Source: Halolamina pelagica (GTDB lineage: Archaea; Halobacteriota; Halobacteria; Halobacteriales; Haloferacaceae). From it: a stretch of DNA of 64,000 bases. Below are positions 9,349-21,903 of the stretch, piece by piece (within the stretch, counting starts at the first letter, position 1; each line of letters starts with the position of its first letter). The notes under the pieces were generated by a model. That model was given only the letters and a program-made list of their open reading frames with translations. It was not told the origin of the DNA and made no database searches. Made by a program: the position numbers and the translations under genes. The stretch lies in the NCBI RefSeq assembly GCF_900115675.1, contig NZ_FOXI01000004.1, positions 62,001-126,000 of the forward strand, given 5' to 3'.

Positions 9349-9759
9349 TCACCCATCGCCGGCGACCGCCCGCAGCAGGTAGCCGGCGCCGTCGTCGTAG
9401 GCGTCGGGTTCGACCGCGAGGCGCTCGAAACCGAGCTCCCGGTAGAGCTCACGGGCACCCTCGTTCCCGGCGGCGACCCGGAGGACGACGGCCGTCCCGG
9501 GATCGAGTCGGTCGAACAGCGCCCGGAACAGCGCCCGGCCGCGGCCCTCCCGGCGGTGGTCGGGGTGGACGACCAGCTCGGCGGCGTGGACGGGGTCGCC
9601 CGGAAACCAGAGGAGGTAGCCGACGACCGCTCCCGACTCGGTCGAGACGAACAGCTCCCCGCCGGCGACGGGGGCGAGCAGTTCGGGGGCCGGTTCGGGG
9701 AGGAACTGCTGGAGGTTGCGGACCGCGGGGCGGTCCGCGGGGCGACCCTCGCGGATCAC
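9349..9759 (-). CDS. GNAT family N-acetyltransferase
   Basis: A 136-aa compact GNAT protein. The acetyl-CoA-binding segment is VVHPDHRREGRGRALFRALF, followed by VLRVAAGNEGARELYRELGF. This is close to the minimal family length, as in RimI-like enzymes, but nothing shows the acceptor. The start overlaps the upstream DUF92 gene by 4 nt (ATGA-type overlap), so the two are probably translationally coupled. Confidence 0.85.
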   Translation of the reverse strand: MIREGRPADRPAVRNLQQFLPEPAPELLAPVAGGELFVSTESGAVVGYLLWFPGDPVHAAELVVHPDHRREGRGRALFRALFDRLDPGTAVVLRVAAGNEGARELYRELGFERLAVEPDAYDDGAGYLLRAVAGDG

Positions 9760-11114
9760 ACCGCGAACGCGAGCAGCACGCTCGCGAGCGCCCCGGCGAG
9801 CGTCGCGAGCAGGTTCACCGTCTCGTTCTCGAGCCGGTCGCCCTCGACGGTGGCGCCGAGCACGCTGTCGGCCGTCATCCCGGCGAACCCGCCGACGGTG
9901 ACGAGCGCGACGACGGTCGTCGACCCCCGGCTGATGCTGAGCAGGACGACCGCCAGCACGCCGACCAGCGCGGCGCCGACGAGGCCGGCGAGTTCGCCCT
10001 GCCAGGTGACGGCGCCGTCGGTGCCCGGCGGGACGCGCTCGCCGGTCGTCACCAGCCGCGGGGTGTCGAACAGCCCGCCGATCTCGCTGGAGAGCGTATC
10101 ACCCGTCGCCGTCGCGAGCGAGCCGGCGAAGGCGAGCCGGAACAGGTCCGGGTCGATCGGGAACTCCCCCGCGCCGACGGCCGCGAAGCCGACGACGGCG
10201 ACGAGCGCGATCCCGGCGTTGCCGAGGACGTTCCCGAGCCCGCGGGCGCCCTCGTTCTCCTCGGCGACGCCGCGTTCGGCCTTCTCCTCGTACCGGTACT
10301 TGGTCGTGAGCGAGCCGACGCCGAAGAAGGTGAGCAGGAGGATGAACCACCCGGGGCCGCCGAAGCCGATGGTGACGAGGCTGAACACCACGCCCGCCAG
10401 CATCCCCTCGCCGGAGGCGGTGCCGGTGGCGTAGGTGAAGCCGCCGAGGAAGAGGGCGACGCCCAGCGCGAGCGCCACGTCGAGCACGTGGACCGCGGGG
10501 ACGAGCGCCCCCACGACGAGCATCGACGCGCCCACCGCGAACGTTACGGCGGCGGTGTCCCCCGGCGAGAGCATCGAGCGCGTGAGCGCGCCGACCAGCG
10601 CCGCCATCGCGGCGTGGAACGTGAACGTCGGCGCGGCCGCGAACCCGACGTCGACGCCGGCCGCGGCGAACGGCGTCGACCCCAGCGCGACGACGATCAG
10701 TTGGGCCAGCAGCGCGGCGACGAACGCGGCGGTCGCGAACGCCGCGACGACGAGGAACTGCTCGTCGAGGCGGTCGCGGACGGCTGTCGCGCCGAGGTTC
10801 CCGACGCCGACGGTGACGACGCTCGCGGCGAACGCCGGGAGCGGCATCGTGTAGGTCGCGGCTACGGGTGGCGCCGCGAGGAAGGCGAGGACGGCGGCCG
10901 CGAGCGCGAACGAGGCGAGCCCGTAGAGTCGGCCGGCCTGTCGGTCGCGCGGCCGGGCGAACAGCTCGAACAGCGGGCCGTCGTCGACGAGTAACGCCGC
11001 GGCGCCGGCGACGGCGAGAAACGGCAGCGCCGTCGCCCGCCCCAGAAGCGGCGCCGCGAGTGCGAGCAGGGAGACCGCGGCGAAGCCGGCGTCGCGCCTG
11101 AGCCTCCGGTTCAC
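9756..11114 (-). CDS. DUF92 (TMEM19/VTE6-like) membrane protein
   Basis: A 452-aa polytopic membrane protein. The DUF92 signature lies in the second half: SGDTLSSEIG-like ATGDTLSSEIGGLF, then TTGERVPPGTDGAVTWQGEL and a final MTADSVLGATVEG. The N-terminal ~200 residues are extra hydrophobic helices. Plant VTE6, a phytyl-phosphate kinase, belongs to DUF92, so a polyprenyl-phosphate kinase role is possible but unproven. The adjacent cis-prenyltransferase genes make an isoprenoid connection attractive. Confidence 0.8.
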   Translation of the reverse strand: MNRRLRRDAGFAAVSLLALAAPLLGRATALPFLAVAGAAALLVDDGPLFELFARPRDRQAGRLYGLASFALAAAVLAFLAAPPVAATYTMPLPAFAASVVTVGVGNLGATAVRDRLDEQFLVVAAFATAAFVAALLAQLIVVALGSTPFAAAGVDVGFAAAPTFTFHAAMAALVGALTRSMLSPGDTAAVTFAVGASMLVVGALVPAVHVLDVALALGVALFLGGFTYATGTASGEGMLAGVVFSLVTIGFGGPGWFILLLTFFGVGSLTTKYRYEEKAERGVAEENEGARGLGNVLGNAGIALVAVVGFAAVGAGEFPIDPDLFRLAFAGSLATATGDTLSSEIGGLFDTPRLVTTGERVPPGTDGAVTWQGELAGLVGAALVGVLAVVLLSISRGSTTVVALVTVGGFAGMTADSVLGATVEGDRLENETVNLLATLAGALASVLLAFAV

Positions 11115-11230: not shown

Positions 11231-11839
11231 GTGGGAGCCTACGACGCCTATCTCGCCCTCCGTCACCGCCTCGCCGACGCCGACGGCCCCGACCACGTCG
11301 CGCTGGTGCTCACCGAGCGCGACCTGCTGGAGCAGGGAGCTTACGGGACGCTCGAAGCGACGCTGCGCTGGGCGTTCGACTACGGCGCCGAGCGCGTCAC
11401 GGTCTCGGTGTCGGTGCTCGACGAGGCGGTCGTCCCGACGCTCGTCCGGGAGCTTCGGGGGATCGAGGCACCGCGCGAGGTGGCGGTCCGCGGCCCCGAC
11501 GACGCCGAGCGCGCGGACGCGCCGATCCGGATCAACGTCGGCCTCGGCGGCCGCGGGGAGTTCGCCCGCGCTGTCCGGGAGATGGCCGAGGACGTGGCGG
11601 CCGGCGATCTCGATCCCGCGGACGTCGACGAGGAGACGGTGACCGACCACCTCGTGTTCCCGGAGGAGCCGGATCTGCTCGTCAAGACCGGTGCCGAGCG
11701 GCTCTCCGACTTCCTGATCTGGCAGTCGACCTACTCGGAGCTCTACTTCACCGACGTGAACTGGCGCGACTTCCGGAAGCGGGACTACCTCCGGGCGGTT
11801 CGGGAGTTCGAGGATCGACAGCGTCGGTTCGGGGAGTAG
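11231..11839 (+). CDS. cis-prenyltransferase paralogue lacking catalytic motifs
   Basis: A 202-aa protein from a GTG start. Its C-terminal half aligns with undecaprenyl diphosphate synthases: DLLVKTGAERLSDFLIWQ, SELYFTDVNWRDF and a terminal RRFGE containing an RxG motif. The first family motif (HVAIIxDGNRRxA) is replaced by HVALVLTERDLLEQ, losing the catalytic Asp, and RTGG is altered to KTGA. About 60 residues of the usual core are also missing or shortened. This resembles the non-catalytic NgBR/Nus1 subunit of heteromeric cis-prenyltransferases. The catalytic homologue is the convergent neighbour, 36 nt away. Confidence 0.8.
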   Translation: MGAYDAYLALRHRLADADGPDHVALVLTERDLLEQGAYGTLEATLRWAFDYGAERVTVSVSVLDEAVVPTLVRELRGIEAPREVAVRGPDDAERADAPIRINVGLGGRGEFARAVREMAEDVAAGDLDPADVDEETVTDHLVFPEEPDLLVKTGAERLSDFLIWQSTYSELYFTDVNWRDFRKRDYLRAVREFEDRQRRFGE

Positions 11840-11875
11840 TTGATCCACTGACCGGCTGCCCGCGTGCCGAGTCGC

Positions 11876-12802
11876 TCAGTCCGCCGACCCGGCGTTCGCG
11901 TCGAGTTCGGCGTCGATCTCCGGGACCGCTGTACCGGGGAGTTTCTCGCGCAGCCGGCCGGCGACCGTGCGGGCCTCCGCGAGTTCGGTCTCCGCGACGG
12001 CACGCACGATCGCCGCCGCGCGCTCGCGGCGGGTGCGCTGCCAGGACCGCTCGCGGGACTGGTAGGTCCGGATCCCCCGCAGGAAGTCGATCTTCGAGAA
12101 CTCCGGCCAGTAGGGCGCACAGAAGTAGGCCGCGGCCTCGTTGCCGTTGGCGTGCCACGGCAGGAAGTTCGAGGTCCGCTCGTCGCCGCCGGTACGGATG
12201 ATCAGGTCCACGTCCCGGACCTGGCGGCCGTAGAGGCGGTCGTCGACGAGGTCGATGTCGATCTCCGCGGGGTCGAGATCGTCGCCGTCCACGTCCTCCA
12301 GCACGTCGCGGGCGGCCCGGAGGAGTTCGTTCCGGCCGCCGTAGGCGAGTGCGACGTTGAGCCGGAAGGAGCCGTAGTCGGCGGTCCGCTCCTCGGCGTA
12401 CCGGATCGACTCCTGGACGCGCTCGGGCAGGCGGTCGGTCTCGCCGATGGCGCGGATCGCCACCTCGTTCTCGTGGATCCGGTCGTGGTCGGCGATCGAG
12501 GTGAGCTTCTCCTCGAGCAGGTCGTAGAGGTGCTCGCGCTCCTCGGGCGGACGCTTGAAGTTCTCGGTCGAGAACGCGTAGAGAGTGAGCTCCTTCACTC
12601 CGAGGTCCTGGCACCACTCGAGCACCTGCTCGGTGGTCTCGGCGCCGGCGCGGTGGCCCTCGGAGGCGTCGTCGCCCTGTTCCCGGGCGTAGCGCCGGTT
12701 GCCGTCCTGGATGATCGCGACGTGGGAGGGACCGCCGTCGCCCTCGCGACGGAGCAGCCGCTCGTAGGCCCGCGCGACCTGCTCTCGGACCCACTGCTTC
12801 AT
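11876..12802 (-). CDS. uppS: cis-prenyltransferase (undecaprenyl/dolichyl diphosphate synthase type)
   Basis: A 308-aa catalytic cis-prenyltransferase that elongates an allylic diphosphate with isopentenyl diphosphate to make the polyprenol glycan carrier. It has HVAIIQDGNRRYAR near residue 47, YAFSTENFKRP, LNVALAYGGRNEL and DLIIRTGGDERTSNFLPWH. The place where bacterial enzymes end in RERRFGG reads RERSWQRTRRER, so the RxG motif is absent here. A ~55-residue C-terminal extension follows. The archaeal product is expected to serve as lipid carrier for N-glycosylation. Confidence 0.92.
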   Translation of the reverse strand: MKQWVREQVARAYERLLRREGDGGPSHVAIIQDGNRRYAREQGDDASEGHRAGAETTEQVLEWCQDLGVKELTLYAFSTENFKRPPEEREHLYDLLEEKLTSIADHDRIHENEVAIRAIGETDRLPERVQESIRYAEERTADYGSFRLNVALAYGGRNELLRAARDVLEDVDGDDLDPAEIDIDLVDDRLYGRQVRDVDLIIRTGGDERTSNFLPWHANGNEAAAYFCAPYWPEFSKIDFLRGIRTYQSRERSWQRTRRERAAAIVRAVAETELAEARTVAGRLREKLPGTAVPEIDAELDANAGSAD

Positions 12803-12908: not shown

Positions 12909-13050
12909 GTGTGTAACGAAACGGCGGCGCGCGGACACACTGTACGGTGGCGACGGAGACGACCCACAAACCGGCATCCACCAAAACCGCTGACACCGCC
13001 GGCAGTAGGCTCCCACAAACGACTTAACCGAGAGCGACGCAGTGGAGGCC

Positions 13051-13386
13051 ATGGATCCCGTCGCGCTACAGTTGGACATCGATTTCCGGCAGCTCGGCGT
13101 CGAGGCCGGCTCCGGCGCCCTCATCGGCGCCCTGATCGGCTTCGCCGCGAAGAAAGTCGCCAAGATCATCGCCGTGCTGGTCGGCATCGAACTGGCGCTG
13201 TTCAAGTTCCTCGAGTCCCGCGAGATCATCACCGTCGACTGGGACAAGCTGACGTCGGGGATGATGGGCGCCAGTCAGGACGCCGCCAGCGGGACGCCGC
13301 CGTCGTGGCTGGACACGATCCTCTCGACGGTCTCGGTCTCGGCCGGCTTCACCGGCGGCTTCTACGTCGGCTGGCGGCGCGCGTAA
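13051..13386 (+). CDS. FUN14-family membrane protein
   Basis: A 111-aa protein with the FUN14 pattern: SGALIGALIGFAAKKVAKII (Gly-zipper helix with KK pair) near the N-terminus, followed by LVGIELALFKFLESREII, and a C-terminal helix SAGFTGGFYVGWRRA. Archaeal and bacterial FUN14 proteins are small membrane proteins of unknown role; the eukaryotic ones act in mitophagy. The ATG at 13051 was preferred to a GTG nine bases upstream. Confidence 0.82.
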   Translation: MDPVALQLDIDFRQLGVEAGSGALIGALIGFAAKKVAKIIAVLVGIELALFKFLESREIITVDWDKLTSGMMGASQDAASGTPPSWLDTILSTVSVSAGFTGGFYVGWRRA

Positions 13387-13415: not shown

Positions 13416-14141
13416 TCAGCGCGTCTTGAGGTCGTCTTTCTCCTTGACGATGCTCGTCTCGGCCTCGCCGCTGGTCTCCTCGTTGACCAGGTCGTAGAAG
13501 TCGTTCTGCATCCCCGCCGGGAACGTGACGACGCCGATCCACGAGCCGTCGGCCTGCCACTCCTCGCGTTCGAGGTCGCCGTACTGCCGGATCTTCGCCT
13601 GTGCGCTGCCCGCGTAGTCCGCGGGCACGTTGACCGCGACGGTGACCTCGTCGAACCGGATCGGGATCACCGGCCGGAGCGCCTCCAGCGCGTCGTCGAC
13701 CTGAGCCTCCACGGGTTCCATCGGGTCGATGGAGAAGCCAGCCTCCTCGAGCGCCCGCTCGATGCGCTCGGGCGGGTGGGGCGCGTTGTCCATCTGGGGG
13801 TTGACCGCGTTCCGGGCGATCTTGTTGATCAGCGCGTTGTGCTTCTGCTCCTCCATCTCCTTGCGCTGCTCCGCGGTGATCTGGATCTCCCCGCGCTCGA
13901 CGACCTCCGGGATGATCTCCAGCGGGTCGGTCGTGCCGAACACTTCCTCCAGCGCGCTCTCCGCGGGCCGATCCCCTCGCGAGGCGTTCTCGAACACGTC
14001 CTCGGCGGCGATCACGTCCTCGAGGTCGCCCTCGAACTCGCCGCGTTTCATCTCCAGGGCGGCGTCGGGGTCGATGAGCACCTCGAAGCGCTCGCCGTGG
14101 GACTCGAGCCGCGCGGTGACGGCATCGTCAAGCGGAATCAT
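13416..14141 (-). CDS. SBDS-family ribosome maturation protein
   Basis: A 241-aa archaeal SBDS (Sdo1) homologue, involved in 60S/50S subunit maturation by releasing aIF6. The N-terminal FYSH domain (about 1-90) includes [13 protein letters not shown] and [14 protein letters not shown]. The middle domain shows [16 protein letters not shown] and [13 protein letters not shown]. The C-terminal ferredoxin-like domain has [19 protein letters not shown]. Length fits archaeal members. It is convergent with the FUN14 gene and shares its strand with the DUF2797 gene upstream. Confidence 0.93.
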
Positions 14142-20149: not shown

Positions 20150-20250
20150 ACGCCGGGGGTCGGCCGGCCGCGCCAAAGGCGCTTCCGAACGTTCCCTCGC
20201 GGCGATGCCGCTTCCGAACCTTCTTGCTACAGGGCGCGACAGGGACGCCC

Positions 20251-21903
20251 ATGCGCCGACTCGACCGGGTCGAGCGAGCCGTCGTCGCAGTCACGGCGAT
20301 CGCACTCGTGGTCCGGCTTGTCGGCCTCGGCGCGCGCCCGTTCCACTGGGACGAGGCCCGCGTCGGCTACTGGACGCTGCGCTCGCTCGAGACCGGCGCC
20401 TACGAGTACCGCCCGGTCGCGGGCGGGCCGTTCCTCTACGTCGTCGGGCGCCGGCTGTTCGCGCTCGGGCTGACCGGCGACGCCGCCGCGCGTCTCCCCG
20501 TCGCGCTGATCGGCGGGCTGCTCCCCCTAGCGGCGCTGCTGTTCCGGCGAGTCCGGGACCGCGCGTCCCGTTCGGGGCTCTCGGACACCGAAACCGTCGC
20601 GCTCGCGCTCCTACTCGCGCTCGCGCCGCCGCTGCTGTACTACTCGCGGGTGCTGCGCGGCGACCTCCCGCTGGCCGCGTTCTCGCTCGTCGCCGTCGGG
20701 TTCGCGTGGCGCGCACGCCGCCGGGAGCGCCGTCGCGCGCTGTACGCCGGCGCCGCCGCGTTCGGCCTCGCGCTCGCCACATCGGGGTTCGCGCCCGCCG
20801 TGGTCGGCTGCTGGCTCGTCGCCGGCCTCCTCACCATTGACGAGGGACGCGTTCGGGGTGCGGACCCGACGGCCATCCGGGCGCGGGTCCGCGCGGGCCT
20901 CGACGCCGTCGCCGACCGGTCCGTCGCCCTGCTCCGCGCGGTCGTCGTCACCGTCGCCGTCGCGATCGCGTTCTACCTCCCGCGCGGGCGGGTCGACCTG
21001 GCCGAGCCCGCGTCGCTGTTGGCAGCCCTCGAAGCCGGCACGACCGGCGCCGGCCGGCGGTTCCTCGCGGTGCGCGTGCTCGGCCGGCACGCGCCGCCGA
21101 CGTACACGAACGACCACGCGCTGCTCCCCTTCGTCGCCGGGACCACGGACGTGCTGCTGGCGGCGGCGCTCCCGGTCGTCGGCCTCGCCGTCTGGGGGTT
21201 CTTCCGGGCGCGCTACGCCGGCCGGTCGCGACCGCTGGTGAACTTCGCCGCCTACTGGGCCGGCGCCGGACTGCTCCTCTTCCCGATGGCGACGGAGGTG
21301 AACCAGCCGTGGGTCGCCGTGCACGTGCTCGCGCCGGCGACCGTGCCCGCGGCCGTCGGCCTCGGGGCGCTCTGGAACGCCGCGCGTGAGAGTCTCGCCG
21401 ACGACCGGGCCGCCCGACTCGCCGCGGCGCTGTTGCTGCTCTCGGCCGCTGGGGTCCACACCGGTGCGGTCGTCGCCGGGGAGGTGTACGACGCGCCCGA
21501 GGCCGGCGACGCGCTGCCGGGGTACGCCCAGCCCGGCTCGGAGTTCCGGGCGCCCGTGGCGGCGATCGAACGCGCAGTCACGGACGGCGAGGGCATCGAC
21601 GTGCTCTACGTCGGCGCCGACCTCGCGGTCGCGGACGAGTCGGCGCTCGACCGTCCGCCGGTCCCCGAGTCCGCGCGGGACGCGTTCTCGGCGCGGTTGC
21701 CGCTCGCGTGGTACGTCGAGCGCACCGGGGCCGAGACCGCGAGCGTCGACGCACCGAGTGCGGTGGGCGAGTCGCCGCCGTCAGTCGTCGTTACGACGCC
21801 GGAACACAGACGCGCGGTGGGCGACCGACTGTCGGGCTACGAACGCTACGAGGTCGAACAGGGCCTGACGAACCGGCGGCTGGTGGTGTTCGTGGCGTCC
21901 TGA
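20251..21903 (+). CDS. Agl23-like membrane glycosyltransferase-family protein
   Basis: A 550-aa polytopic membrane protein of the GT-C/GT39-like family annotated in haloarchaea as flippase activity-associated protein Agl23 (TIGR03663). The N-terminal signature FHWDEARVGYWTLRSL carries the acidic loop after the first helix, as in dolichyl-phosphate-sugar-dependent transferases. About ten hydrophobic helices precede a soluble C-terminal domain (from about residue 425). It would act in N-glycosylation at the membrane and so depend on the dolichol made by the cis-prenyltransferases encoded at 11-12.8 kb. Confidence 0.78.
   Translation: MRRLDRVERAVVAVTAIALVVRLVGLGARPFHWDEARVGYWTLRSLETGAYEYRPVAGGPFLYVVGRRLFALGLTGDAAARLPVALIGGLLPLAALLFRRVRDRASRSGLSDTETVALALLLALAPPLLYYSRVLRGDLPLAAFSLVAVGFAWRARRRERRRALYAGAAAFGLALATSGFAPAVVGCWLVAGLLTIDEGRVRGADPTAIRARVRAGLDAVADRSVALLRAVVVTVAVAIAFYLPRGRVDLAEPASLLAALEAGTTGAGRRFLAVRVLGRHAPPTYTNDHALLPFVAGTTDVLLAAALPVVGLAVWGFFRARYAGRSRPLVNFAAYWAGAGLLLFPMATEVNQPWVAVHVLAPATVPAAVGLGALWNAARESLADDRAARLAAALLLLSAAGVHTGAVVAGEVYDAPEAGDALPGYAQPGSEFRAPVAAIERAVTDGEGIDVLYVGADLAVADESALDRPPVPESARDAFSARLPLAWYVERTGAETASVDAPSAVGESPPSVVVTTPEHRRAVGDRLSGYERYEVEQGLTNRRLVVFVAS

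Follow-up and report, generated by a model that had tools for sequence, protein, structure and literature searches.

A convergent gene pair in Halolamina pelagica and the case for a two-subunit cis-prenyltransferase in the Halobacteriota

The best-known heteromeric cis-prenyltransferases (cPTs) are those of eukaryotes, where mutation of either subunit leads to disease, and that of one methanogen. The DNA analyzed here (the window), a 64,000-nucleotide stretch of the haloarchaeon Halolamina pelagica, carries two convergent genes for cPT homologues of 308 and 202 amino acids (aa), which raises the question of whether their products act together as a single enzyme. An earlier note on this DNA had proposed a haloarchaeal two-subunit dolichol synthase, and the analyses reported below support that proposal. 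The two proteins are very probably the subunits of one heteromeric cPT, the committed enzyme for the dolichyl-phosphate precursor. The direct basis for this reading comprises the sequences themselves, the complementary loss of motifs, the co-occurrence of the two genes across the phylum, the clades formed by each subunit, and an orthology with a Methanosarcina mazei pair reached by elimination. That the proteins bind each other, that activity requires both of them, how long the product is, and what the enzyme does in H. pelagica are inferred. The pair is thus a known kind of enzyme rather than a new system; no description of a haloarchaeal cPT pair was found in the literature searched. The last stages of dolichyl phosphate formation in archaea are still to be identified (PMC5088576, PMC5898192).

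Complementary motif loss in the two proteins

ORF and motif reading confirmed the gene positions, the convergent layout, and the motif descriptions previously given for both proteins (Table 1). The PF01255 match of the 308-aa protein spans the whole domain, and that of the 202-aa protein covers its C-terminal half alone (aa 97-201, 3e-26); both lie above the gathering score. The two are paralogues, with 39% identity across aligned positions; the shorter one lacks the DGN loop, the adjoining downstream stretch, and other parts of the N-terminal half. A whole-genome PF01255 search of the 99%-complete H. pelagica genome returned exactly these two loci and no single-chain cPT carrying both motifs, as a homodimer-type enzyme would. 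Among viral contigs, no relatives of either protein were found.

Table 1. Features of the cPT gene pair and its surroundings (positions are those of the window)
Feature	Position	Strand	Basis or remark
DUF92/COG1836 membrane protein, 452 aa, divergent from the NgBR-like gene	9756..11114	-	PF01940, E 6e-57
Gene for the 202-aa cPT homologue (putative non-catalytic, NgBR-like subunit)	11231..11839	+	GTG start; ORF, PF01255 over C-terminal half
T28-E29-R30 in place of D-G-N (202-aa protein)	11312..11320	+	Alignment; TERDL in 52/95 partners, DGN in 0/95
KTGAERLSDF replacing RTGGDERTSNF (202-aa protein)	11684..11713	+	Alignment
C-terminal R-R-F-G-E, i.e., RxG and a single further residue; predicted contribution to the active site of the catalytic subunit, which it would complete	11822..11836	+	94/95 partners alike
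Interval of 36 bp separating the stop codons of the convergent genes	11840..11875	.	ORF ends
Gene for the putative 308-aa catalytic cPT subunit	11876..12802	-	ATG start; PF01255 E 6e-72, TIGR00055 E 5e-73
RERSWQRT (other cPTs, RERRFGG), then C-terminal extension, aa 250-308, predicted mainly helical	11879..12055	-	Alignment and low-confidence model
R203-T-G-G-D-E-R209 motif (308-aa protein)	12176..12196	-	Alignment
D33-G34-N35-R36-R37 catalytic/diphosphate motif (308-aa protein)	12692..12706	-	All five invariant in 52 aligned catalytic subunits
FUN14-family small membrane protein	13042..13386	+	
SBDS-family ribosome-maturation gene	13416..14141	-	
"Agl23-like" protein	20224..21903	+	PMT_2, below cut-off

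The larger protein keeps the DGN and RTGG motifs and has lost the RxG motif, and the smaller one shows the reverse. Described at first for these two proteins, this pattern proved general in an alignment of 193 proteins from the Halobacteriota, 98 of the catalytic type and 95 of the partner type. DGNRR was present in 95 of the 98 catalytic proteins, the other three being gapped at that place, and in none of the partners. Conversely, R-x-G followed by exactly one residue formed the terminus of 94/95 partners (the lone exception reads KFGK); a C-terminal RxG was missing from 97/98 catalytic proteins, and none of the 98 ended in RxG plus exactly one residue. Complementary loss on this scale is far above chance. 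From the RERSWQRT column to the C terminus, the catalytic proteins run for a median of 59 residues. About a quarter of them have only a short tail beyond the lost RxG, so that a DHDDS-type C-terminal extension is not general.

Some individual sequences depart from the common form. One catalytic protein from an Archaeoglobi-type family (L067 of genome G391, family f15) has RRFG near its C terminus, followed by GQKYK; this RRFG is perhaps a relic of an undivided ancestor. Two divergent partners from family f20 (L340 of G308 and L341 of G300) have open frames of 164-168 aa and terminate in RRFG plus one residue. In genus g2 (L137 of G006, L138 of G013, and other genomes), what looks like an insertion, located around residues 90-97 in G006 and G011, splits or lengthens the NgBR-like match; the G013 match measures 624 versus 600 bases.

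The human enzyme suggests how the two halves might fit together. The human NgBR terminus is R290-L291-G292-K293, with the backbone of L291 and G292 binding phosphate and the terminal carboxylate meeting DHDDS residues R37 and R85 (PMC7573591). Read from the alignment, window residues R36, E80, N81, and R84 match the DHDDS contacts to the NgBR tail (R37, E81, N82, and R85), and none of the four varies among 52 aligned catalytic subunits. In the proposed mechanism, the 308-aa subunit would use DGNRR and the RTGG-ER region to bind Mg2+ and the allylic primer and, by analogy with DHDDS/NgBR and the M. mazei heteromer, elongate the allylic diphosphate with IPP, its own RxG tail having been lost. 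The 202-aa subunit would retain the dimer half of a cPT and the tail, without the catalytic loop, and its RRFG plus one residue would cross the interface to organize the catalytic diphosphate/Mg2+ site, as in DHDDS/NgBR. The product would be a C50-60 polyprenyl diphosphate, converted to dolichyl phosphate, the glycan carrier in archaeal N-glycosylation. Genes of the STT3/AglB family are present in the window's genome and would use such a dolichol-type carrier. The more specific suggestion that the pair feeds the "Agl23-like" protein at 20-22 kb held up poorly, the PMT_2 score of that protein (21.5 bits) lying under the 26.1-bit cut-off.

Occurrence, gene order, and the DUF92 neighbor

The two-gene cPT arrangement is the rule throughout the phylum Halobacteriota. 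The earlier note would have taken its proposal as refuted if most haloarchaea carried only one of the two genes. They do not: at least two cPT genes were found in 291/292 genomes of Halobacteria, the exception being a fragmented assembly (G072) in which the partner alone was detected. A partner orthologue was present at an E value of 1e-37 or below in 290 of the 292, and the remaining genomes (G217 and G235) also have partner-like C-terminal matches. Sampled phylum-wide, 145 of 147 genomes had at least two cPTs plus a partner-type match. No cPT was detectable in G298 and G306 (genus g83, family f18), which are fragmented and 91% complete and in which DUF92 is present. Catalytic proteins form one clade and partners another, with SH-aLRT support of 98 and 100, respectively.

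These data bear on whether the 202-aa gene could simply be a decaying, functionless cPT duplicate, as the missing catalytic DGN loop and missing parts of the N-terminal half might suggest. That reading is barely credible for a gene that is retained across the phylum with an almost invariant C terminus and whose haloarchaeal copies, where aligned, share 69-97% identity with the protein of the window.

The earlier note had also invoked a heteromeric precedent in Methanosarcina, and the precedent is real: as PMC8131916 relays the work of Emi et al. (2019), MM_0618 and MM_1083 of M. mazei constitute a heteromeric cPT with C45-50 products. A third protein, MM_0014, is active without an RxG motif (PMC8131916). 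Methanosarcina 2.H.T.1A.6 (G442) has three cPTs: a catalytic-type protein, a partner-type protein, and a third with a TLGG end. A G401 protein of this last type aligns along its entire length with the solved structures of the MM_0014 type. Proteins from the family that holds the MM_0014-type genes fall within the same catalytic and partner clades. Methanosarcina thus has the pair plus the MM_0014 type, so the heteromer that is not MM_0014, i.e., MM_0618/MM_1083 as described in that source, would correspond to the window pair. Reached by elimination with other Methanosarcina proteins, this makes the window genes putative orthologues of MM_0618 and MM_1083.

It could still be argued that the 308-aa protein is active alone as a homodimer, with the 202-aa protein as a dispensable modulator of, for example, chain length or membrane association. 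The catalytic subunit does retain all the canonical active-site motifs, human DHDDS homodimerizes if expressed on its own (PMC7573591), and MM_0014 itself functions without RxG. We nevertheless regard this as unlikely, because the partner accompanies the catalytic gene phylum-wide almost without exception, the RxG tail of the partner hardly varies, and the account cited above describes the M. mazei pair as heteromeric. A two-subunit enzyme remains the preferred reading.

Gene order was compared in 86 haloarchaeal and 115 non-haloarchaeal genomes for which both gene positions were available. The catalytic and partner genes were unlinked in 22/86 and 79/115 of these, respectively. Of the 100 pairs no more than 12 kb apart, 99 were convergent and one was co-directional. 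Convergent order was found in the haloarchaea plus ten other families, implying that the order is old. Among 56 linked pairs the stop-codon gap ranged upward from -27 bp, with 23 gaps of at most 60 bp and two overlaps. The lack of linkage in many members counts against the pairing, as does the fact that convergent genes are not co-transcribed. In the window, the region directly upstream of the catalytic gene holds a FUN14-family gene beside one of the SBDS family.

The other conserved neighbor is DUF92, which divergently adjoins the partner gene in 56/95 genomes examined (e.g., L092, L097, L098, L109, and L123). DUF92 is single-copy in 100/100 Halobacteriota genomes, which places this adjacency far beyond chance. 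In the fetched Archaeoglobi-type (f15) genomes, it adjoins the partner while the catalytic gene sits elsewhere, and in several families it is nowhere adjacent to the partner gene. The DUF92 family includes plant VTE6. VTE6 is a phytyl phosphate kinase (PMC5694494), and Makarova et al. listed uppS as the sole conserved neighbor of arCOG02245/DUF92, predicting a kinase-type isoprenoid step (PMC5898192). To that clue we can add that the conserved cPT neighbor of DUF92 is the non-catalytic subunit. The DUF92 protein is a candidate polyprenol or polyprenyl-phosphate kinase in the dolichyl phosphate pathway.

Such frequent adjacency, including in Archaeoglobi-type genomes with the catalytic gene elsewhere, might mean that the 202-aa protein chiefly serves the divergent DUF92 enzyme, e.g., by recruiting a polyprenyl phosphate kinase, its cPT link being secondary. 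This is highly improbable: it leaves unexplained both the retained RxG tail with the matching RxG loss in the catalytic subunit and the M. mazei heteromer as reported in the source cited above, and the adjacency is absent from several families. The 202-aa protein is better read as the second cPT subunit.

Origin of the division of labor

In a survey of 44 named archaeal genomes, those of the Halobacteriota had two or three cPTs each (among them Haladaptatus, Haloferax gibbonsii, Natribaculum, Methanoculleus, Methanosarcina, Archaeoglobales, ANME-1, Methanoperedens, and Methanothrix), and nearly all the others had one or none. In all 26 cPTs read from these other archaea with a single cPT, DGN occurred together with a terminal RxG followed by one residue. 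In Asgard archaea (the phylum of a named Lokiarchaeote), a cPT was found in 137/148 genomes, nearly always as a single gene; all 30 Asgard proteins read carry both motifs in one chain, and no clear partner-type protein was seen among the 148 genomes. The whole-phylum rule in the Halobacteriota thus contrasts cleanly with the single-chain enzyme of the remaining archaea, Asgard included.

Two genomes outside the Halobacteriota had two cPTs, one of Methanomassiliicoccus (G428) and one of the Thermoplasmatota (G431). The second Methanomassiliicoccus copy gave a weak match (3.7e-36) and may be of the MM_0014 kind.

The trees, which were built without NgBR/NUS1, bear on the relationship to the eukaryotic catalytic subunit. 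Human DHDDS was placed among the single-chain archaeal enzymes in a quick tree. In a careful tree without the partners, the Halobacteriota catalytic subunits formed one clade excluding DHDDS (100/99), with DHDDS itself unplaced. On a thinned set, the AU test rejected neither a grouping of DHDDS with the catalytic clade nor the catalytic and partner proteins as one clade. Median scores of human DHDDS were 190 bits for Asgard proteins, 176 for other single-chain archaeal enzymes, and 165 for Halobacteriota catalytic subunits.

The simplest history is that a single-chain ancestor was duplicated at the base of the Halobacteriota and that each copy then lost the half kept by the other. An independent split in the Halobacteriota and in eukaryotes is likely, mainly on the evidence of distribution rather than of the tree, no clear partner having been seen in the 148 genomes of Asgard archaea. 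In its full form, the scenario that we consider reasonably probable is that a two-subunit synthase arose twice, at the base of the Halobacteriota and in eukaryotes, each time by duplication of an archaeal single-chain enzyme and division of the active-site halves between the copies; the Asgard enzyme would have stayed undivided, and the Halobacteriota event would have fixed the divergent order of DUF92 and partner and the convergent order of partner and catalytic gene.

The phylum-wide arrangement provides a test case for the repeated evolution of one division of labor. It also offers a model of the human-type enzyme that has no anchor, as well as a large set of aligned natural sequences from which the interface of the two subunits could be mapped, and it sharpens the earlier neighborhood clue that placed the DUF92 membrane enzyme in the same pathway.

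Comparison with known cis-prenyltransferases

The closest counterpart is MM_0618/MM_1083 of M. mazei, which, as described in PMC8131916, shares with the window pair the phylum, the two protein types, and the synthesis of a glycosyl carrier lipid. The genes of the pair are unlinked in the Methanosarcinaceae-type family, whereas those of the window are convergent neighbors. The MM_0014-type cPT resembles the window catalytic subunit in being archaeal and without RxG, but it belongs to a distant branch, ends in TLGG, works alone, and occurs in addition to the pair. Bacterial UppS, which works as a homodimer, and the single-gene archaeal cPTs belong to the same family and have the C-terminal RRFG that the archaeal partner retains; they differ in carrying DGN and RxG in one protein.

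The earlier note had held that DHDDS/NgBR and yeast Rer2/Nus1 divide the motifs in exactly this way. For the human pair the geometry is indeed the same, but for yeast the claim must be relaxed. Rer2/Nus1 is likewise a pair of a catalytic and a non-catalytic cPT, yet Nus1 is without a canonical RxG (PMC7573591), in contrast to the archaeal partners, which retain it. Assignment of the 202-aa protein to the NgBR/Nus1 family itself was rejected. The partner profile scored 49 bits against NUS1 versus 127 bits against bacterial UppS, and the 202-aa protein has no N-terminal membrane anchor, its cPT alignment beginning at the first residues.

Among all solved chains, the catalytic family profile gave its top score to human DHDDS. 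Structure prediction from an alignment of just the window's two proteins gave poor models (mean pLDDT, 40 and 59). The low-confidence 308-aa model has helices at 237-287 and 294-307; in Foldseek it ranked DHDDS first, a result of little weight at an rmsd near 19 A.

Human DHDDS, like the haloarchaeal catalytic subunit, has DGN, is without RxG, and bears a C-terminal extension, and NgBR, like the archaeal partner, is a pseudo-enzyme without DGN that ends in RxG plus one residue. The archaeal proteins differ in that the partner is anchor-less and, in sequence, far nearer to ordinary cPTs, and in that the archaeal catalytic clade leaves DHDDS out.
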